Positions 67 through 14,961 of a DNA stretch of 24,050 nucleotides are shown here, piece after piece. The position numbers were made by a program, and so were the translations under genes. The number at the start of each line of letters is the position of its first letter. Position 1 is the stretch's first letter. Below the pieces are notes generated by a model. That model was not told the origin of the DNA. It saw only the letters and a list, made by a program, of their open reading frames with translations, and searched no databases. The stretch is from a virus. The stretch is taken from IMG/VR virus record IMGVR_UViG_3300025646_000364, positions 1 to 24,050 of that record, one strand, 5' to 3'.

Positions 67-298
67 ACCCGCCTCTTCCCTGAGAGATTTGCCAATGTGT
101 GTGATTGCTACCAAAAGATTACTCCGATGAACCCGGGAGGGCAAGGGGCCAAATCATTGCTCTGACATTGAGCAGATTTGGGGAAATTCAGGGCCAAGTG
201 ACATGACACACGCATGTCTCTATTGCTCCCTATATAATTTATATATTTATTACCTTTATTACCCTTTTATTTTATATATCTCTATTACTATATTTATT

Positions 299-321
299 TA
301 TATATTAGTCACTAATATATA
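299..321. repeat. 23-bp perfect palindrome in the AT-rich tract
   Basis: Two 11-nt arms around a central C at 310; the core reads TTAGTCACTAA. The centre carries GTCAC, a partial match to the GTGAC half of the neighbouring repeats. It could be a dimeric protein binding site or a small cruciform. AT-rich sequence makes chance palindromes commoner, so its function is unproven. Confidence 0.5.
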
Positions 322-350
322 TAAATAACTAAAAACATTGAAAAAACTGG

Positions 351-372
351 GTGACACATTCAGTGACACATT
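351..372. repeat. Tandem iterons GTGACACATT x2
   Basis: Two identical 10-mers at 351-360 and 363-372 are separated by 2 nt (CA). Inverted copies lie at 391-399 (9 of 10 bases) and 485-494 (10 of 10). The 12-nt period is close to one helical turn, so proteins bound at both would lie on nearly the same face of the DNA. Confidence 0.75.
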
Positions 373-428
373 AACTCTTAGTGACGCTGTATGTGTCACA
401 AGCTGCACCTTAATTGATCACTGTATAA

Positions 429-1946
429 TTATATATCTCTGATTAAAAATTCCTCAGTTGTCCCAAAACCCGAAAAACCGCTATAATGTGTCACTAAGCG
501 CACGATTTTAGGCGTTAAGTGACCGCCCATTTCTGGGTTAAAATCAGCACTCGGAACTTTAGCCCAACCCCTCGCGTTGTTCATTCTGTACTCAAATAAA
601 GTCGGTAGTCTCAGGTTTTTCAGGAACACTGTGGCATCTTTTGTGGTCCTTGGTCTGTATATTCCGCTCTGTTCAAGGATTTTTGACATCATTGATTTAG
701 GTATAAAGAAACAATGTTTTGATGTATCAAGCTTGCTTCTTTTCATCCAAGTAATTGGCGGGCTATATTGTTCCAGGTGATCATTGAGCCATTCTTCCAG
801 CTCTTCCCCTTGCCCTTCTTCTGCATTCTTATCTTTTTGTCTTTGTTTAAGTAGGTGAGCTGACTCAGGTGGAGCAAACCTTTCAAGAACATCTTCATGC
901 CACGACCTAAACCGGCAGTGCCAGGGGTGAGGGGTTCTCTTCTCCTTGAGCATGTTAATTATCTCAAAGACCACCTGCTGCCTTTTCTCAATACATATTT
1001 CATTGAATATTTTGTCATAATCTAGCCCGTGGCAAGCTTTTTTGATCTCGATAATGAACGCCCTACTGGCAAGGTCCGGGCTATAAGAGCCCCCATTGAT
1101 TGTGAAATAGTAGGTGAAATAGTTGAGAACCGACCCATCTCCAACATGTAAAGCTTCTGGCCCTCCGATTTCTTTAGATGTCAAAACATCCTCAAGCTCG
1201 CCGCTTGAGACTGTGAATTTTTTGATATTGTCAAAAAGAACAACTCTTCGGCTCATGTTTTGAGAATTAAGAATCCTTCTCCTTAGTCCTTTAACATCTG
1301 AGATATTGCAGCCCGAGTACATGCCTCCAGCCAGTTCTGCGGCCACTTTAACAAGCTCTGTTTTGCCATATCCTCTACCTCCGCCTTCTTTCATGTCTGT
1401 TGTGATAAATATGGCCGGCCTAGCCCCGGGTTTGCCGCCCCAGAACGGCGTGGCGATCGCGGCCTTCATAAGCGCATGATCATATTCCGTGGACGGGTTC
1501 CAGAGGCGAATGAGTCGATCAACAAGCCCCTCGGATTTGACCATCTCGAATTGCCTATAATAAACCCCGTCAATCTTTGGCTGATGAGGTGTTCCTGATT
1601 CAAAATCCATCTCAGGGGCTAGATCTCTCAGGGCTGCAAAAGCCTCTTCCTTTGAGAAGAATTGGTTTTGCTTAAACTGGCTGACAATTCCCATAGTTCC
1701 CATGAAGCTATAAAGCTCCGAGGCTTTGTCAATCCTTTTAACTCTTATGGTTTTCTTGTTCTTAAAGTCATTGCGGGCAATCATCAACCGAGACGCAACT
1801 CTGTAGAAATCGCATTCATTTTTGGAGAGTATGTTGACCAACTTATTTACGTAATTAGGCAAATTATCAAAAACCGTAAAATCTTTTCCATCTTCGTCCT
1901 GCACAACTTCAAAATTAGCAATATAATCTGGCTTTTTTCCGCTCAT
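429..1946 (-). CDS. Phage replicative helicase-like ATPase (SF3/D5-type AAA+)
   Basis: A 505-residue protein with a clear P-loop, GGRGYGKTEL (Walker A Lys195, Thr196), a Walker B-like VVLFDN (Asp239, Asn240), and a later FTING (sensor-like Asn284) followed by LASRAF (Arg295, candidate arginine finger). This order resembles the superfamily 3 and D5/P4-type helicase modules of phage primase-helicases, which unwind DNA as hexamers. No primase motifs are seen here; the primase is a separate gene upstream in the same operon. The C-terminal third (about 355-505) is unrecognised and may bind DNA or origin. The start is ATG with GAGG 13 nt upstream, rather distant. The repeats of the putative origin reach into the 3' end of this gene. 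Confidence 0.72.
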   Translation of the reverse strand: MSGKKPDYIANFEVVQDEDGKDFTVFDNLPNYVNKLVNILSKNECDFYRVASRLMIARNDFKNKKTIRVKRIDKASELYSFMGTMGIVSQFKQNQFFSKEEAFAALRDLAPEMDFESGTPHQPKIDGVYYRQFEMVKSEGLVDRLIRLWNPSTEYDHALMKAAIATPFWGGKPGARPAIFITTDMKEGGGRGYGKTELVKVAAELAGGMYSGCNISDVKGLRRRILNSQNMSRRVVLFDNIKKFTVSSGELEDVLTSKEIGGPEALHVGDGSVLNYFTYYFTINGGSYSPDLASRAFIIEIKKACHGLDYDKIFNEICIEKRQQVVFEIINMLKEKRTPHPWHCRFRSWHEDVLERFAPPESAHLLKQRQKDKNAEEGQGEELEEWLNDHLEQYSPPITWMKRSKLDTSKHCFFIPKSMMSKILEQSGIYRPRTTKDATVFLKNLRLPTLFEYRMNNARGWAKVPSADFNPEMGGHLTPKIVRLVTHYSGFSGFGTTEEFLIRDI

Positions 1947-2053: not shown

Positions 2054-2371
2054 TTATAATTGCCCAACATTATCGATCTCTTCAGCCGCTATAAATGCCA
2101 GCCCTTCGAGAAGATCCTCCCTTGTCACGTCGCCCCCTTCGTACCATTTAAAATCAATACTCATAAGCTCCATAAATGCCCTGAGCCGCCCCGGGTTCGT
2201 AAGGCTATAGTTCTTGTCATCATAGCGGGCGACCAACTTATCTTGGCTAAAAAACAGATCGACCTCCTGGTGCTCAAATATAGTCGCAGCCATGTCGATC
2301 AAAAGATCATAATCAATAAACCCACTGCCCGTCTTATTTGTGAAAATATTGGCCTTCAACATTACCTCCAT
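2054..2371 (-). CDS. Small hypothetical replication-operon protein
   Basis: A 105-residue acidic protein that I do not recognise. It has no membrane segment and no obvious motif; the second half is rich in Asp and Glu. It lies between the primase and the helicase, overlapping the end of the primase. Two starts are possible: ATG at 2371 without a clear ribosome site, or ATG at 2362, which overlaps the primase stop as TAATG and has GGAGG only 2 nt away. Its position suggests a helper of the primase-helicase pair, such as a loader or adaptor, but nothing in the sequence shows this. Confidence 0.6.
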   Translation of the reverse strand: MEVMLKANIFTNKTGSGFIDYDLLIDMAATIFEHQEVDLFFSQDKLVARYDDKNYSLTNPGRLRAFMELMSIDFKWYEGGDVTREDLLEGLAFIAAEEIDNVGQL

Positions 2372-3123
2372 ACTTTGTTAATGATTTCATCTATTTCAGA
2401 ATCAGGAAAACCTTCCCTGCTAAACTGCCCACTCATAACCCGGGTTCTTAGTTCATCCCGCCCCCAGCCATGCTGCTTGGTCCATCTTGAGATTCTCATA
2501 ATCATATCGTTTCGGCCAGAAGAACCCCGGCATGGCTCTCCCTTTTCAAGAAACCACGAAGCCCAGAAAGGCAAGGAACCCGCTGGATATGTTACAGGAG
2601 CAGTCTCAATCTTAGGCGGGGCTTTAAATACGTCCATATCTAGCCCTTCATCATTTGTCCACCACTCACAGCCCTCAAAGGGCCAAAAGAACCGGGCTCC
2701 ATCGACACAAGCTGGATCTGCCCCGTAGCGATCAGCAAGGCGCTTCATGGTGAACTTATAATCATCAAGGCTTGTTATCTCCCTCTCAAATGGGATGCAA
2801 ACCCGGAATCGGTCACACGCGGGCTTGCCGTCCTTCCCCTTCTGGTGGCTCTTTGTTGTGGCAATAGCGAACTGACAATCGGCAAAAATATTCTCCCGGG
2901 CTTCTTCGAGACTTACGCCTTCATCAAAATCAAACACACAAAGGCTTGCACCTTGAAATTTCGCAGCCTTACGGACTCCAAAGCACCAACGTATCGGGCT
3001 CCATACGTAGTTTTGACAGGCAAGGACAACATCAACCATGTTAGAATTTTCTCTGACTTTAAATCCGTCAAACTGGTGATTTGCTTGGTAATTCCCAGGT
3101 TCTTTATAACTTAGGTAATACAT
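2362..3123 (-). CDS. Archaeo-eukaryotic-type primase (prim-pol) with PriCT-like C-terminus
   Basis: A 253-residue protein with the three signature motifs of AEP primases in order. VFDFDEG carries two metal-binding Asp (65 and 67), TTKSHQ carries the His of the sxH motif (93), and CVDGARFFWP carries the third Asp (141). The C-terminal part, about 205-253, with GRNDMIMRISRW and a final SEIDEIINKVW, resembles the PriCT-1 helical domain often fused to phage and plasmid prim-pols. It should make primers at the replication fork. It starts divergently from the ribbon-helix-helix regulator and heads the operon with the helicase. Unlike many phage primase-helicases, primase and helicase are separate proteins here. 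Confidence 0.75.
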   Translation of the reverse strand: MYYLSYKEPGNYQANHQFDGFKVRENSNMVDVVLACQNYVWSPIRWCFGVRKAAKFQGASLCVFDFDEGVSLEEARENIFADCQFAIATTKSHQKGKDGKPACDRFRVCIPFEREITSLDDYKFTMKRLADRYGADPACVDGARFFWPFEGCEWWTNDEGLDMDVFKAPPKIETAPVTYPAGSLPFWASWFLEKGEPCRGSSGRNDMIMRISRWTKQHGWGRDELRTRVMSGQFSREGFPDSEIDEIINKVWR

Positions 3124-3126
3124 CTC

Positions 3127-3155
3127 TTGACACCCTCATATTATCTCTGTATTGT
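3127..3155 (+). promoter_or_regulatory. Sigma70-like promoter for the early rightward operon
   Basis: A perfect TTGACA at 3127-3132 is followed after 17 nt by TATTGT at 3150-3155. It begins 4 nt beyond the start codon of the divergent primase gene and lies just before the ribbon-helix-helix gene. The short divergent region means a repressor bound here could affect both operons. Confidence 0.65.
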
Positions 3156-3177
3156 CTTTGGCGATGGAGGGGTTTAT

Positions 3178-3342
3178 ATGAAAATTATTGCTATTGAGCA
3201 ACAACAAAAGACAGAACATCTCAATCTGAAGATTTCCAAGAATCAGAGGAAAGAGCTGGAAAAGGTAGCCAAGAGGTCAAAAGTCACGATCTCTGAGGCT
3301 GTTCGTCAACTTCTAGATTTTGGGTTAAAGCATGTTCTATGA
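3178..3342 (+). CDS. Ribbon-helix-helix (Arc/CopG-type) regulator
   Basis: A 54-residue basic protein. The ATG at 3178 is preferred because GGAGG lies 6 nt upstream and it falls after the promoter. A strand (about 13-19, with EHLNLKIS) is followed by two helices (KNQRKELEKVAKRS and TISEAVRQLLDFGL), the layout of small MetJ/Arc/CopG repressors, which dimerise and insert the strand into the DNA major groove. As first gene of the early operon, facing the primase operon, it probably regulates itself and perhaps the primase. No clear operator palindrome was found in the short divergent gap. An antitoxin role is less likely because no toxin gene adjoins it. Confidence 0.75.
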   Translation: MKIIAIEQQQKTEHLNLKISKNQRKELEKVAKRSKVTISEAVRQLLDFGLKHVL

Positions 3343-5899: not shown

Positions 5900-6034
5900 A
5901 TGATTAGCAAAAAAGAGTGGTGGGAATACACCAAAGAGAAATACTGGTACACGATTTTATTCTTTGAGTGGATCGGCTTTGAAGAGTGCCTTATTTGGTT
6001 TTGGGAAATGGAGCAGCTACATGGCGATGATTGA
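5900..6034 (+). CDS. Trp-rich 44-residue protein, diverged copy of the gene at 6208
   Basis: It starts at ATG 5900 with a GGCGGTGGG stretch just upstream. It begins ISKKEWWEYTKEKYW and ends with WEMEQLHGDD. The same beginning (ISKAEWWEYTK) and end (EEMEERYGDD) occur in the 59-residue protein at 6208-6387; the middle here is shorter and aromatic. Both genes end in the same GGCGATGATTGA junction with the next gene. The two look like a tandem duplication in which this copy lost its central part. Function unknown. Confidence 0.55.
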   Translation: MISKKEWWEYTKEKYWYTILFFEWIGFEECLIWFWEMEQLHGDD

Positions 6035-6218
6035 CAAAACAAAAGGACCGCAAGCCTACAAAAAACCCTGGTATGAATACAAGTCAGATGCAGAAAAAGC
6101 CCTGCAAACAATAAGGCATATATTTGGCGATAATACATTTCACGAACATCAAAGAATAGTGGGATTTCTTGAAGGTTACGTTAGAGGTATGGAGTTTGTT
6201 GATAGGTATGAGGATTAG
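6021..6218 (+). CDS. Small hypothetical protein
   Basis: A 65-residue protein from ATG 6021, which has GGAG 7 nt upstream; an in-frame ATG at 6027 is possible. It has no membrane segment. It begins MAMIDKTKGPQAYKKPWYEY and contains a predicted helical region rich in charged residues (SDAEKALQTIRHIFG). It overlaps both neighbours, 14 nt upstream and 11 nt downstream. Not recognised. Confidence 0.6.
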   Translation: MAMIDKTKGPQAYKKPWYEYKSDAEKALQTIRHIFGDNTFHEHQRIVGFLEGYVRGMEFVDRYED

Positions 6219-10498: not shown

Positions 10499-10710
10499 AA
10501 AGCTTGATCATCATTAACAACGGGCTCTCTTTTCTCATTGATCACAAATGAGCCCGATGGCGTGTTGATGATTTGCTTCTTTTTTGGCTTCTCAAAGCTG
10601 CGTTTTATTTTTGGTCGGGGTCTGAGGGCATATATAGTGAGCCAAGCTGCCCCCAATATGACCCCGATAGTAAGGAACTGGATAATCAAGAGTGATCTTA
10701 CAAAATCCAT
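10480..10710 (-). CDS. Small membrane protein of the lysis cassette
   Basis: A 76-residue protein with one N-terminal membrane helix (about 6-28, LLIIQFLTIGVILGAAWLTIY), followed by a highly basic segment (RPRPKIKRSFEKPKKK) and a polar tail. AAAGG lies 7 nt before the ATG. It is followed directly by the transglycosylase. A holin, holin-regulator or inner-membrane spanin role is plausible from the location; no family is recognised. Confidence 0.6.
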   Translation of the reverse strand: MDFVRSLLIIQFLTIGVILGAAWLTIYALRPRPKIKRSFEKPKKKQIINTPSGSFVINEKREPVVNDDQALWEREN

Positions 10711-11225
10711 TCGTGAGCCTTTGCGCTGAAAAGTATAGCATCGATATGCTTGCCGTTTTTGTAGTAGAAATCCCGCCGGGTGCCCTCGACGTGCATTCCG
10801 ATCTTTTTGAAGAGGTGCCGCGCCGGGTTCTCAGAAAAGGTCTCGCCCCAGATGATATTAAGCCCAAGTTCATCAAAGCCGTAATTAAATAGCGTATGAA
10901 GGGCCTTCTTAGCTATCCCACGGCGTTGCTTGTCGGGATCGATCCACAAGCTAAACTCAGCCTTGCGAACATGCATATCAATCGACGTGAGCCCGCAGAC
11001 GCCAGAAGGCTTCCCATCAACCTGGGGATCGCACCAAATCTCAAACATTTGAATGGTTTTATCATCGTTTTGAGCTTTAAACCACTTCTCTTGATCTTGC
11101 TCACTTATGAGCCCGACCTGTCGACACCACCCGCGTATTTCGGGGTTATTTCGACATCTGCGGTAAAAATCGACATATTTATGTTGCAGGGGAAGCAGAA
11201 CAACCCCTTTGTCATAATCAATCAT
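10698..11225 (-). CDS. GNAT N-acetyltransferase (PseH/RimJ-like)
   Basis: A 175-residue acetyltransferase. FSLWIDPDKQRRGIAKKAL (91-109) is motif A of the GNAT fold, with Q100-R-R-G-I-A105 forming the acetyl-CoA pyrophosphate loop. ENPARHLFKKIGM (132-144) is motif B. The HxxF and GTRRDFYYKNG end resembles RimJ/RimL- and PseH-type enzymes. PseH-type enzymes acetylate the 4-amino group of UDP-sugars made by a PseB dehydratase and an aminotransferase, and both enzyme types are encoded upstream in this operon. Acetylation of an amino sugar is therefore the preferred role, by inference; protein acetylation cannot be excluded. Confidence 0.75.
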   Translation of the reverse strand: MIDYDKGVVLLPLQHKYVDFYRRCRNNPEIRGWCRQVGLISEQDQEKWFKAQNDDKTIQMFEIWCDPQVDGKPSGVCGLTSIDMHVRKAEFSLWIDPDKQRRGIAKKALHTLFNYGFDELGLNIIWGETFSENPARHLFKKIGMHVEGTRRDFYYKNGKHIDAILFSAKAHEWIL

Positions 11226-11427
11226 TGGATGTCAACCTGTTGAAGATCTTGTAAACATCAAGAGCTGTGATTTGTTGGTTGGGCTGATAACCAGTTAGCT
11301 CTGTGAATGCCTGCACGAATTGAGAACCCTTTGATTGAGCCTCTGCTGCGTACTTCTCGACATGTTTGATAGCATCATCTAACTTATTATAAGTTGTGCT
11401 TCCATCTGGTTTAATAATTCCTGTCAT
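11218..11427 (-). CDS. Small hypothetical protein in the sugar operon
   Basis: A 69-residue soluble protein, MTGIIKPDGSTTYNKLDDAI and then a helix (HVEKYAAEAQSKGSQFVQAF). GAGGG precedes the ATG. It is coupled by ATGA to the aminotransferase upstream and by an 8-nt ATGATTGA overlap to the acetyltransferase downstream. Not recognised; too long and structured for a typical acyl carrier protein, and it lacks the DSL phosphopantetheine site. Confidence 0.6.
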   Translation of the reverse strand: MTGIIKPDGSTTYNKLDDAIKHVEKYAAEAQSKGSQFVQAFTELTGYQPNQQITALDVYKIFNRLTSND

Positions 11428-12611
11428 TTTTCCCTCACTTTCATTGAAAAAGGTGATGAAGGGGCTGGATATTCCATCTTAGCAAGCCCCTCTCCAATAC
11501 GTTCTTGAATCTCTTTAATTTGCGGCATAAATCCATATTTTTCTTTGGCAAGATCCCAGTTATAGAACCACGATTTGCAGAACAGCATTTTTGCCTTTGC
11601 TGCTTCTTGCATAAAGAGCCCGTGATCTCCCGTGATGATCCCTCGTGTGGGATAGCCTTCAAGCTGAATGGGTCCAAGAGAGTTGAATTCGTCCATAAAC
11701 TTTTGGCCTTCATCCCACAAGTTCTCGATGTTATAGCTTGGGTCTTTGAGAAGAAGATTAATAACAGCCTGACAAGCTGCAAGAGACGCCGTTTCTCCTG
11801 CGTAGGTCGATGAGACAAAATACTTTCTATCATCCATAACCCAAGGTCGGCCCCCAACAGCAGCCAAGGGAAAGCCCCCACCGATAGCTTTGCCAAGGAT
11901 AATCAAGTCGGGTTCTATGTTCCAATAGGCTGAGACTGAGAACTTAGGAAACCTGAACCCGGTTATGACTTCATCGAATATCAACATCACGCCGTTATCT
12001 GAACACTTTTGCCGAAGTTCTTTAAGCCACTCGCGGCGATTTGTCGATATGTCCGTCACAACCGGCTCAACAATAACAGCGGCAACATCATTTTTAATCT
12101 GGCTCAGATCTGTCAGCTTCCCAATGAAAGGATGATCAGGAACTCCGTGAGCGGGAGGGGTTAGACTGCAAAATTCATCATGCCAACCATGGTAAGCTTC
12201 AGATAAGACCTTATAGCGGCCTGTTGCGTTTCTTGCGATACGTATTGAAGCCGAACAAGCTTCTGAGCCTGTCTTAAGGAACTTCCAACGATCAACCCAA
12301 TGAAACATCTGCTTAAGCTTCTCGGCCGTCTCAACTTCGTAAACAGTCGGCAAGCTGTGGCAAGAGCCGTCATTAATAGCCCTGATCGCTTCCATTGTGA
12401 TCCGAGGGTTTCCTGTTCCGAATAAACCAGTCCCAAGCCCGCCCATGAAATCAAGCCACTTCTGGCCTTTTTCATCGGTCAGATAACAGCCATAACCCTT
12501 TTTGACATGAGTCGGAAATAGCCCATTAATAAGTGAATCAGGATGCTTTGAATTTGTCAGAGCCCCCTGAGCTATCGATCTTTGGGCTCTATGCCAGTAG
12601 CTTTCATTCAT
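11424..12611 (-). CDS. Class III PLP aminotransferase (glutamate-1-semialdehyde aminomutase-like)
   Basis: A 395-residue enzyme with the complete class III pattern. FLKTGSEACSASIRIAR (111-127) binds the cofactor phosphate, YHGWHD follows at 140-145, LIFDEVITGFRF (210-221) supplies Asp213 for the pyridine nitrogen, and LGKAIGGGFP holds the Schiff-base Lys241. Overall it is closest to the HemL/glutamate-1-semialdehyde type, but such proteins also occur in surface-sugar clusters. Between a cytidylyltransferase and an acetyltransferase it most likely adds an amino group to a keto sugar. The usual PseC/LegC aminotransferase in such pathways belongs to the DegT family, so this is an unusual choice. 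Length is slightly short for HemL (about 430). Confidence 0.85.
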   Translation of the reverse strand: MNESYWHRAQRSIAQGALTNSKHPDSLINGLFPTHVKKGYGCYLTDEKGQKWLDFMGGLGTGLFGTGNPRITMEAIRAINDGSCHSLPTVYEVETAEKLKQMFHWVDRWKFLKTGSEACSASIRIARNATGRYKVLSEAYHGWHDEFCSLTPPAHGVPDHPFIGKLTDLSQIKNDVAAVIVEPVVTDISTNRREWLKELRQKCSDNGVMLIFDEVITGFRFPKFSVSAYWNIEPDLIILGKAIGGGFPLAAVGGRPWVMDDRKYFVSSTYAGETASLAACQAVINLLLKDPSYNIENLWDEGQKFMDEFNSLGPIQLEGYPTRGIITGDHGLFMQEAAKAKMLFCKSWFYNWDLAKEKYGFMPQIKEIQERIGEGLAKMEYPAPSSPFSMKVREK

Positions 12612-13312
12612 ATTCTAAAGAACCCCCCAGGCTTGCTTTTAGCGAGGTTAATTTTTTTTTCCATGATCTCATGATAAGCGCGAACAAAATCAAGATCCTC
12701 TTCAGTATCAACCGAAAGCTTAAGGCTTGACGTGTCCTGATAACCCACAACATAAGCCGAACGAGCCCACTCCGGAGGCTGTCGCCTTAGAATCGTTGTT
12801 ACATGTTCTCTGTCGGACGGGCTGACAGCGTTAGCATTTGCCCACTTGAAAAGAGCCGATGATATGACTTCACAATCGAGCCCGTCTGCATAGGTGCGGG
12901 TTTCTTCATCGACGTTGGAAACATAATCATATTTGTACTTAACTGCATTGACGATGTGTTTGGTTATCAAGAAATGAGGGATTAAAGGACAATCTCCTGT
13001 GATCCTTGCTACGTAATCAGGAGCCTCGTTCTTAACCATAACCATATAACGACTCAGAACATCGTGCTCGGGTCCAGTGTATACCGTCTCAGAATCTCCA
13101 TATATTTCCTGGAGGGGATCGCCCTCGGGGACTAAGAGACAAACCTTTGCGAATATATTGCCGCCGTCAAAGTTGTTGATATACTTCGCAGATCCCTTGC
13201 AAGCCTTGAGAACCCAGTCAATAAGAGGACGGCCTGATATCTTCATTGTGGACTTCTTGGGAAGCCTTGAAGATGTCGATCTTGCCTGGATGCCGATCAC
13301 TACTTTGCGCAT
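12608..13312 (-). CDS. SpsF-like cytidylyltransferase (CMP-sugar synthetase family)
   Basis: A 234-residue nucleotidyltransferase. QARSTSSRLPKKS (9-21) is the nucleotide-binding loop of SpsF/CMP-Kdo/CMP-NeuAc-type enzymes; YVARITGDCPLI (100-111) and the Asp-containing LSVDTEEDLDFVR near the C-terminus complete the SpsF (COG1861) pattern. These enzymes transfer CMP from CTP to an acidic sugar. In this operon it would activate a product of the dehydratase and aminotransferase. No NeuB-type synthase that would make a nonulosonic acid is in the window, so the substrate is unknown. Confidence 0.82.
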   Translation of the reverse strand: MRKVVIGIQARSTSSRLPKKSTMKISGRPLIDWVLKACKGSAKYINNFDGGNIFAKVCLLVPEGDPLQEIYGDSETVYTGPEHDVLSRYMVMVKNEAPDYVARITGDCPLIPHFLITKHIVNAVKYKYDYVSNVDEETRTYADGLDCEVISSALFKWANANAVSPSDREHVTTILRRQPPEWARSAYVVGYQDTSSLKLSVDTEEDLDFVRAYHEIMEKKINLAKSKPGGFFRI

Positions 13313-13902
13313 TTATAAGCCCCCTCAAGAACCCGCTCATGGGCTTGGATCATGTACCTCTTGTTGCTTGCTGGCTGTTTGACCCATTCTTTAATCATGC
13401 GAACATAAGCAAGGTCCATATCACCTAGATTAAGCTCATGGCCGTTAATTTTGCATTTCCAAATAGGTGAATCATTGAAGATATGCGGCGGGCTCTTAGC
13501 AAGCCCGATGATGTTTATGCAGTCCCACTCCAGACCATCCGAGCCCGTCTTGAAATAGTTATAATGGGAGTCTTCGAGACCTCGACCCTCTGAAGGGGCT
13601 AGATGCTCATATTGGTTAACCATTCTCAAGCATTTAATCTTGTCGCAAACCTTGCGAACTTGATCGATATCTTTGCTTATGGGTTTCTCACACAGAACCT
13701 TGAAGTCATCAAGAATCATGAGATTTTCAAAATGGAATTCTGTCGGGCTAGCTACGATAATGCTATGAAGGTCTTTTTTGTATCTTGGAGCGTCTTGCCA
13801 GTCATGTTCATCAAACATAACAACATCGACGCCCAGCATCTCAAGGATTTTTTTGTACCTATTCCCCATATTACCGGAGCCGATTATACCAATTGCTTTC
13901 AT
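13300..13902 (-). CDS. Short Gfo/Idh/MocA-type oxidoreductase
   Basis: A 200-residue protein with an N-terminal Rossmann fold (GIIGSGNMG, glycines at 8, 10 and 13), VASPTEFH (50-57) and LCEKPIS (70-76), whose Glu-Lys-Pro is the hallmark of the Gfo/Idh/MocA family. Usual members have 320-380 residues; here the C-terminal sheet domain is much reduced. GGGAGG lies 8 nt before the ATG. It overlaps the dehydratase by 4 nt and the cytidylyltransferase by 13 nt. It probably oxidises or reduces a sugar hydroxyl in the same pathway; a degenerate or regulatory enzyme is also possible. Confidence 0.8.
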   Translation of the reverse strand: MKAIGIIGSGNMGNRYKKILEMLGVDVVMFDEHDWQDAPRYKKDLHSIIVASPTEFHFENLMILDDFKVLCEKPISKDIDQVRKVCDKIKCLRMVNQYEHLAPSEGRGLEDSHYNYFKTGSDGLEWDCINIIGLAKSPPHIFNDSPIWKCKINGHELNLGDMDLAYVRMIKEWVKQPASNKRYMIQAHERVLEGAYKCAK

Positions 13903-14747
13903 CCTAAAACCCTCCCAACAAGCTTAACCAAGTCTTCTCTCTCAAATTTATGGAAATGTTGGCTTGTGTACTTGTCATCTTTAACGTCAACGCTCCAGCC
14001 TATTTCTTCATGAATCTTTTCACCCGGCCTGATTCCTACAATATCAATTTCATAGCTTGAAACCCCCAGGTGATCGGCAACGACTTCAAGAAGTGCCAAG
14101 ATAGAGCTTGAACCAAGGGCTGGGACAAGCCTTCTTTTTGAACTTGAATCTCTGCTTCTCCAAAGGAATTCAGCAGCATCATCTAAGTGGAGCCAGAACC
14201 TTGTCATGTCCTTATGTGTGATGGGGATCTTCTCACCTGCAAGAAGTTTGTCTTTGAATATATGCAGGACCGAACCCCTTGAGCCCATGACATTTCCCCA
14301 CAAGAAGACAAGGGCATCGTCTTTATCTCTCAAGTACCTCTCACTCATGGCCTTAGCCATCCCGTAAGCATTGACGGGACGAACGGCCTTGTCTGTTGTT
14401 GTGAAGATATACTTAGCCCCAGAAACCCGGGCATATTTATATGTGTTGATTGTCCCGTGATAGTTAACATCGGCACAATATTCAACATTATCCTCGCAGA
14501 CCTCAATGTGTTTACTTGCTGCGAGATTGAACACGTAATCAGCTTTTTTAGGGAGTTTATCTAGCCATTCGTTGCCTCTTATGTCACCGAGGACATATTT
14601 TGCCGGGAATTTTTGTCGAAGCTCCTTTTGCCTCAATTCACAACGACTCACAATCCACACATTATAAGGCTCGGGATCGGCTTCTATCTGGCTACACAAC
14701 GCCTTCCCAAGAGAACCCGTTCCGCCAAATATAACTATATTTTTCAT
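13899..14747 (-). CDS. PseB/FlaA1-like nucleotide-sugar 4,6-dehydratase
   Basis: A 282-residue enzyme from ATG 14747, with AAAGGA 8 nt upstream. An in-frame upstream ATG would add 17 residues without similarity. FGGTGSLGKAL (7-17) binds NADP(H). TTTDKAVRPVNAYGMAK has Asp119-Lys120 and Tyr128-x3-Lys132, the same spacing as the Asp-Lys and Tyr catalytic residues of FlaA1/PseB. DMTRFWLHLDDAA and GIRPGEKIHEE are further family blocks. Such enzymes turn UDP-GlcNAc into a 4-keto-6-deoxy sugar, the first step of pseudaminic-type amino-sugar synthesis. It leads the sugar operon. Confidence 0.85.
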   Translation of the reverse strand: MKNIVIFGGTGSLGKALCSQIEADPEPYNVWIVSRCELRQKELRQKFPAKYVLGDIRGNEWLDKLPKKADYVFNLAASKHIEVCEDNVEYCADVNYHGTINTYKYARVSGAKYIFTTTDKAVRPVNAYGMAKAMSERYLRDKDDALVFLWGNVMGSRGSVLHIFKDKLLAGEKIPITHKDMTRFWLHLDDAAEFLWRSRDSSSKRRLVPALGSSSILALLEVVADHLGVSSYEIDIVGIRPGEKIHEEIGWSVDVKDDKYTSQHFHKFEREDLVKLVGRVLG

Positions 14748-14748
14748 T

Positions 14749-14961
14749 TTATTTATCCTTTGGAGAATACTCAAAGAGATAGGCGGGATCGAGAACATTC
14801 GTCACGACCACCGCCCCGCCACTTGTTAGTTCGGCGAGAAGTTCAGTTGCATCTTTGGTGAGCTTAGGCTGTGGGGATTTTCGTTTTCGGAGGATAAAAA
14901 GAGTCAATACTACATTAAGAAGCATTGACGCTGAAAGGATGATGATGGGCAAAATAGACAT
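14749..14961 (-). CDS. Small membrane-anchored protein heading the sugar-lysis operon
   Basis: A 70-residue protein from ATG 14961; a TTG at 14976 is an alternative start, and neither has a strong ribosome site (GAG 9 nt before the ATG). An N-terminal membrane helix (ILPIIILSASMLLNVVLTLFI) is followed by RKRK and a soluble tail (about 40 residues, with ATELLAELTSGGAVVVTN). It overlaps the region before the dehydratase start. No family is recognised; it is the first gene after the internal promoter. Confidence 0.55.
   Translation of the reverse strand: MSILPIIILSASMLLNVVLTLFILRKRKSPQPKLTKDATELLAELTSGGAVVVTNVLDPAYLFEYSPKDK

Follow-up and report, generated by a model that had tools for sequence, protein, structure and literature searches.

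Repeats at the 3′ end of a phage SF3-type helicase gene probably mark a replication origin of the phage-satellite kind

Introduction

Where does the virus of the IMG/VR record IMGVR_UViG_3300025646_000364 begin to copy its DNA, and which of its proteins would find the site? The window analysed here comprises positions 1–24,050 of this record (24,050 nt). It contains short repeats and an AT-rich stretch at the 3′ end of a helicase gene, originally predicted to be an iteron-like origin that might be bound by the helicase, the primase, or a 105-residue protein.

The type of origin considered here is known from phage satellites and is said to occur in no other known bacterial replicon. PICIs have their origin directly 3′ of the initiator gene, in the form of an AT-rich region flanked by two sets of iterons (PMC6092414), and SaPI Rep uses its C-terminal domain to recognise iterons just past the end of its own gene (PMC7581432). 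The SCCmec protein Cch2 and its isolated C-terminal domain both bind direct repeats located downstream of the gene encoding it (PMC7581432). In pRN1, a stem-loop 3′ of the primase-SF3 helicase gene is required, whereas in phage BIP-1 such a stem-loop is only proposed (PMC4234260). The kind of origin is thus already known from the PICI/SaPI, SCCmec, and pRN1 literature (PMC6092414, PMC7581432, PMC4234260). The proposal for BIP-1 is the one description of such a phage origin recognised in the literature covered (PMC4234260); subscription papers lie largely outside that coverage and may hold an earlier one. New are the phage setting, the orphan helicase, and a GTGAC word common to phages and PICIs.

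We propose that positions 198–523 are very probably a phage replication origin of the pri-rep-ori kind of PICIs and SaPIs, at which the helicase would be the initiator, binding GTGAC and melting the AT-rich stretch.

Repeats and an AT-rich stretch adjoin the end of the helicase gene

The window is continued by another IMG/VR contig (G001, 19,252 nt), which encodes the same helicase and contains the same repeat region, both at 100% identity. G001 extends 2,142 nt beyond the left end of the window, so that 26,192 nt (26.2 kb) were analysed in total.

The word GTGACACATT occurs in two exact direct copies on the + strand, at 351–360 and 363–372, the second 12 nt after the first, and in one exact inverted copy on the − strand at 485–494, within the 3′ end of the helicase gene. 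The second inverted copy of the original prediction is GTGACACATA at 390–399 on the − strand, which has one mismatch to GTGACACATT. Three exact copies compare with 0.01 expected, and none of 100 shuffles reaches three. When two mismatches are allowed, the word is not in excess in the window (16 found, 16.7 expected).

Of the 31 sites for the core of the word, GTGAC, in the window and the additional 2,142 nt, eight fall at 198–523 (198+, 308−, 351+, 363+, 381+, 395−, 490−, 519+). The sites outside the longer repeats are at 198–202 (+), followed by TGACAC at 204; at 308–312 (−); at 381–385 (+), within GTGACGCTGT; and at 519–523 (+). The helicase open reading frame ends at 429, which places sites 490 and 519 within the gene, and the repeats do enter it as predicted. 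The highest-scoring cluster of repeated 9-mers is above chance (score 12; maximum of 100 shuffles 11), and the best 5-mer cluster is not (score 8.0; mean of 30 shuffles 5.8, maximum 9.3).

The AT-rich stretch, a putative DNA unwinding element, is located at 221–345, and the 120-bp segment with the highest AT fraction in the 26.2 kb lies within it (0.858, next 0.742). Its description as nearly pure A/T was too strong, since 106 of its 125 positions are A or T. Six GTGAC sites are on the helicase side of the stretch, one is within it, and one, at 198, is on the far side; because this single site lies beyond the stretch, an arrangement of two iteron sets is weak in the window. The 23-bp palindrome TATATATTAGTCACTAATATATA at 299–321 is perfect and has the GTGAC site at 308 in its centre. 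GC skew, which had been suggested as a check, points to no origin position: over the whole window it tracks gene direction, and at third codon positions the signs are mixed on either side of the repeats with no clear switch. No origin claim is therefore drawn from it.

A search of viral_contigs for two exact copies of GTGACACATT within 30 nt returns 16 contigs, including one from the same virus. Searched by tblastn with ten proteins of the virus, the remaining 15 give weak methyltransferase matches in L012 and L019 only. The whole 10-mer was consequently rejected as a conserved word; what relatives have in common with the window is the GTGAC core, so that the predicted conservation of the repeats holds for the core and not for the full word. 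In some of the contigs with a pair of GTGACACATT, the words adjoin integrase-like sequence, as judged by eye, and four of these contigs have one coding stretch in common, presumably queE. Arrays of GTGACACATT-like words are also present in the unrelated viral contigs L012, L016, and L022, and the L016 array follows the apparent end of an integrase gene.

The repeats lie between two leftward genes of a phage

Three leftward (− strand) genes precede the repeats. They encode a DNA primase of 253 aa (2362–3123; phrog_2135 DNA primase, 3.2e-13), a 105-aa protein without a family match, here called p105 (2054–2371), and the 505-aa helicase (429–1946), which is assigned to the SF3/D5 type by homology and profile comparison and is the proposed initiator. 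Beyond the repeats, the 5′ part of a RuvC-like resolvase gene occupies 1–144 on the − strand, and the rest of it lies outside the window (L003 6803–7387; phrog_1770, 5.9e-19); the + strand open reading frame at 1–165 is its antisense. On G001, the resolvase gene is followed on the helicase strand by genes for a ParB-like/DNA methyltransferase protein (phrog_498, 3.3e-122) and the small terminase (phrog_309, 3.8e-16), which starts at L003 8751, about 2 kb from the repeat sites. This gene order places the repeats between two leftward genes, after the helicase and ahead of the resolvase.

Virion structural and tail protein matches are present within the window, and the small terminase gene adjoins it. 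Because it carries such genes, the virus differs from a PICI, which is a satellite needing a helper phage for its virion. The window as a whole has no near match among phage records, the primase alone retrieves only the same virus from viral_contigs, and no relative emerged from two scans of genome_contigs. A divergent Sak4-like gene is common to the window and loci L027 (42%) and L051 (41%).

A gene with weak CopG/RHH matches (3127–3342, +) and the primase gene have their starts back to back, and the same arrangement with a primase gene is seen for the annotated arc repressor gene of L007. The − strand of the window at 10698–14798 contains acetyltransferase, class-III aminotransferase, cytidylyltransferase, oxidoreductase, and polysaccharide-biosynthesis genes in one block, which looks like phage-borne sugar or surface modification.

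The helicase belongs with the SF3/D5 type and is a Pfam orphan

The helicase of the window has no meaningful match in Pfam, PHROG, NCBIfam, or PDB sequences, and none in phage records at 1e-5; with the limit raised to 10, only matches with E of about 7 appear. A search of viral_contigs with the helicase alone finds only the same virus. Relatives identified by motif and profile scans are the helicase halves of primase-helicases in G002, G003, and L084, with homology to the window helicase at 9e-42 (G002) and 9e-24 (G003). The G002 relative matches DUF5906 just below the Pfam cut-off (9.1e-6; 26.7 versus 27.6 bits), and a profile-profile comparison of the ATPase core of the family with DUF5906 helicases gives an E of 0.00022 (probability 45). 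Judged from these comparisons of sequences, the helicase belongs with the SF3/D5-type helicases, as an orphan of Pfam. A scan based on the primase provided 49 loci, including ones in which a small primase is followed by a DUF5906 helicase (L027, L030, L035, L051). The helicases of L027 and L083 have no match in phage records.

The predicted structure of the window helicase is of low confidence (pLDDT 43, and below 50 for residues 358–505), and Foldseek relates it weakly to D5-type and SaPI5 helicases. Because the model is poor, a C-terminal DNA-binding domain in this protein is only putative. The helicase of L051, a phage with GTGAC iterons, reaches a pLDDT of 80.8 when modelled with nine sequences. 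Its end is formed of a strand (407–416), two helices (417–426 and 431–445), and two further strands (448–451 and 456–463), and the predicted elements at 407–463 can be read as a winged helix. In a second comparison, the best solved match of the L051 model is the SaPI5 primase-helicase (Z 20.4, rmsd 6.2, 360 aligned residues, model residues 35–466), followed by poxvirus D5-type helicases about one to two Z units lower; in the ranking of Foldseek itself, SaPI5 is second.

Repeat clusters track the 3′ ends of SF3-type helicase genes

The position of repeats was compared among loci by selecting, in each, the 400-nt window richest in repeated 9-mers on either strand. A locus was counted as positive if the median position of the cluster repeats was between −100 and +400 nt from the SF3 helicase stop codon. 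An initial form of the scan, based on the window start (6/7 and 8/14), was abandoned in favour of the cluster median since ties made its count depend on order. For the virus studied here, the cluster extends from −69 to +78 with a median of +43 nt from the helicase stop and is the top cluster of the 26.2 kb.

In the first set, 11 of 14 loci are positive, with 0.59 expected. Among the 3′ ends of other long open reading frames in the 14 loci, 3 of 117 are positive, and control primase 3′ ends without a recognised SF3 helicase give 1 of 26 (1.09 expected). Five loci found later add three positives (L102, where the result rests on a tie of 11 and 11, L103, and L108) and two negatives (L106 and L107). 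In total, 14 of the 19 phage and satellite loci encoding an SF3-type helicase have the cluster at the helicase end. The window, L027, L051, L083, and L085 had been seen for repeats before the scan, and the blind part of the result is therefore 9/14. The positive loci are not fully independent, because L098 and L099 are alike and L088 and L103 have similar iteron words. The negatives are L030, L087, L095, L106, and L107. In L087 the cluster at the helicase end is second best and the AT-richest 100 bp are at +54; the corresponding values are +80 in L030 and +83 in L106, which has seven ATCTAC words.

Of the streptococcal satellite records listed, four were taken (L097, L098, L099, L108). Duplicates and further cuts of loci were left out (L028, L029, L036, L037, L086, L089–L094, L100, L101, L104, L105), as was L084, in which the contig stops 193 nt past the helicase stop. 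The controls are 26 of 42 primase loci (L007, L009, L026–L074) without an SF3 helicase seen beside the primase, as judged by motif and reading rather than by family search, and some of the 26 are interrelated; the other 16 were judged short, cut, or near-duplicate. Among the controls, L074 shows its second-best cluster at the primase end. Seven of the eight phage-sized contigs searched that contain such loci have a large terminase match, in agreement with hmmscan of their proteins.

An iteron-like origin is the best reading of the locus, and of the three binders suggested originally the recurrence of repeats at helicase ends favours the helicase as the probable one, in line with the initiators described for PICIs and SCCmec (PMC6092414, PMC7581432). 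p105 is less likely to be the binder or initiator: in a tblastn search of the 49 primase loci (E 0.01), relatives of it appear only in the same virus.

GTGAC is common to phage and satellite loci

The stretch from −120 to +400 around the helicase stop was searched for enriched words in the 18 loci other than the window. Among 5-mers with at least two G/C, GTGAC ranks first and reaches p<1e-3 in six loci; the next, overlapping word does so in four, and then the number falls to two. The six are the phage contigs L051 (9 copies), L035 (10), L087 (9), and L102 (5), and the streptococcal satellites Javan757 (L097, 11) and Javan204 (L108, 10). GTGAC is not enriched at p<1e-3 in the other twelve, among them the nearest helicase relatives, L083 and L085. 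Outside these stretches, the 520-nt segment richest in GTGAC contains 2 to 5 copies in each of the 19 loci, and control primase ends contain 0 to 2. Comparison of nine helicase-end stretches by blastn gave no similarity at E<0.01. In several loci the orientation of the sites flips at the AT-rich middle, most clearly in L051, where three forward sites are followed by six reverse ones.

Other loci have other words: TGATCA in L088 and L103, GTAGACACTT in L083, and TGTCCCGGG in L027. The TGATCA-based iterons are at 6179–6418 in L088 and near the helicase stop in L103; since TGATCA contains the Dam methylation site GATC, initiation in these two could be sensitive to methylation. The near-identical contigs L027 (about position 5978) and L028 (2896–3002) are of one virus and differ by about 105 extra nucleotides in L028, some 250 nt past the helicase stop, which may reflect an indel next to the repeats.

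GTGAC might be a recognition word of SF3-type initiator helicases across very divergent replicons, from environmental tailed phages to streptococcal PICIs, a generalisation that we regard as tentative and rather doubtful. If it is true, the PICI-type replicon would be an old module swapped between phages and satellites. As an exchanged module, it could allow a satellite initiator to start replication at a phage origin and a phage initiator to do so at a satellite origin. If the origin reading is true, the origins of many unannotated phages could be found just 3′ of the SF3 helicase gene, and the common iteron word would make the link between phages and satellites testable.

Proposed initiation and alternative functions of the region

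The leftward genes for the primase, p105, and the helicase would be followed directly by the origin. We infer from the sequence that the C-terminal part of the helicase binds the GTGAC iterons on both strands, and that helicase rings form beside the AT-rich stretch and melt it at 221–345. The primase from the same gene block would then prime the forks, which would leave the origin in both directions. The support for this scheme is comparative throughout.

An operator or promoter is an unlikely alternative. Positions 198–523 are directly upstream of the leftward resolvase, ParB-like/methyltransferase, and small-terminase genes, whose repressor or activator could bind the GTGAC sites; inverted sites, which are usual in operators, are present, and the RHH/CopG-like gene with its weak matches could encode the regulator. 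However, a scan for sites of the sigma-70 type finds none on the − strand at 1–1000, and the sites span 330 bp and enter the upstream gene. The GTGAC sites nearest to the start of the RHH gene are at 2812 and, within the gene, at 3283, and the cluster tracks the SF3 helicase in loci with different downstream genes.

A pRN1-like origin, recognised through a folded stem-loop or palindrome with the short repeats being secondary, is very unlikely. In addition to the perfect palindrome at 299–321, the repeat region as single-stranded DNA is predicted to fold better than all of 200 shuffles (z −3.15), and stem-loops downstream of primase-SF3 helicase genes are described for pRN1 and phage BIP-1 (PMC4234260). 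Nevertheless, the predicted fold is partly that of the inverted iterons pairing with each other, and the GTGAC core is common to several loci.

A function in partition or packaging is highly improbable. An RHH-like protein that could bind a centromere-like array and a small terminase gene that could accompany a pac site are both nearby, but there is no ParA-like gene among the subset of window open reading frames scanned, the distance from the sites to the start of the small terminase gene is about 2 kb, and the position of the cluster follows the helicase. A chance cluster in AT-rich intergenic DNA, which the 5-mer score inside the shuffle range would allow, is hardly credible given the exact 10-mers, the 9-mer cluster, and the place and core kept in relatives.

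Comparison with known systems

In origins of the lambda O type, iterons adjoin an AT-rich stretch and the array is partly within a replication gene. The window likewise has iterons beside an AT-rich stretch and two sites inside the helicase gene. In contrast, the gene next to its iterons encodes a helicase and not an O-like initiator, six of the eight sites are outside the gene, and no match to an O-like initiator was found among the window proteins scanned.

In pRN1 and BIP-1, as in the window, the site is directly 3′ of a primase-SF3 helicase gene, and the window also has a palindrome; however, the pRN1 stem-loop is about 100 nt long and lacks iterons, whereas the window combines iterons with a 23-bp palindrome (PMC4234260). 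In the phage P4 alpha protein, a winged-helix part of the primase-helicase binds origin repeats, as the helicase of the window may do, but the Toprim primase and helicase are one protein (PMC4234260). SCCmec Cch2 is an initiator-like helicase with a C-terminal domain that binds repeats just downstream, an arrangement that the window helicase would share; SCCmec differs in being a chromosomal cassette with three iterons and another primase system (PMC7581432).

PICIs and SaPIs (PMC6092414; SaPI5 primase-helicase, PDB 7ola) have the same order of a primase, an SF3/D5-type helicase, and then an origin of iterons and an AT-rich region. The virus of the window differs from them in being a phage that itself encodes virion proteins and a small terminase. 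Its helicase is orphaned in Pfam, the primase and helicase genes are separated by one for a 105-aa protein, two sites are inside the helicase gene, and the far-side iterons are sparse. The GTGAC core of the window is nevertheless the same as that in the streptococcal satellites Javan757 and Javan204.
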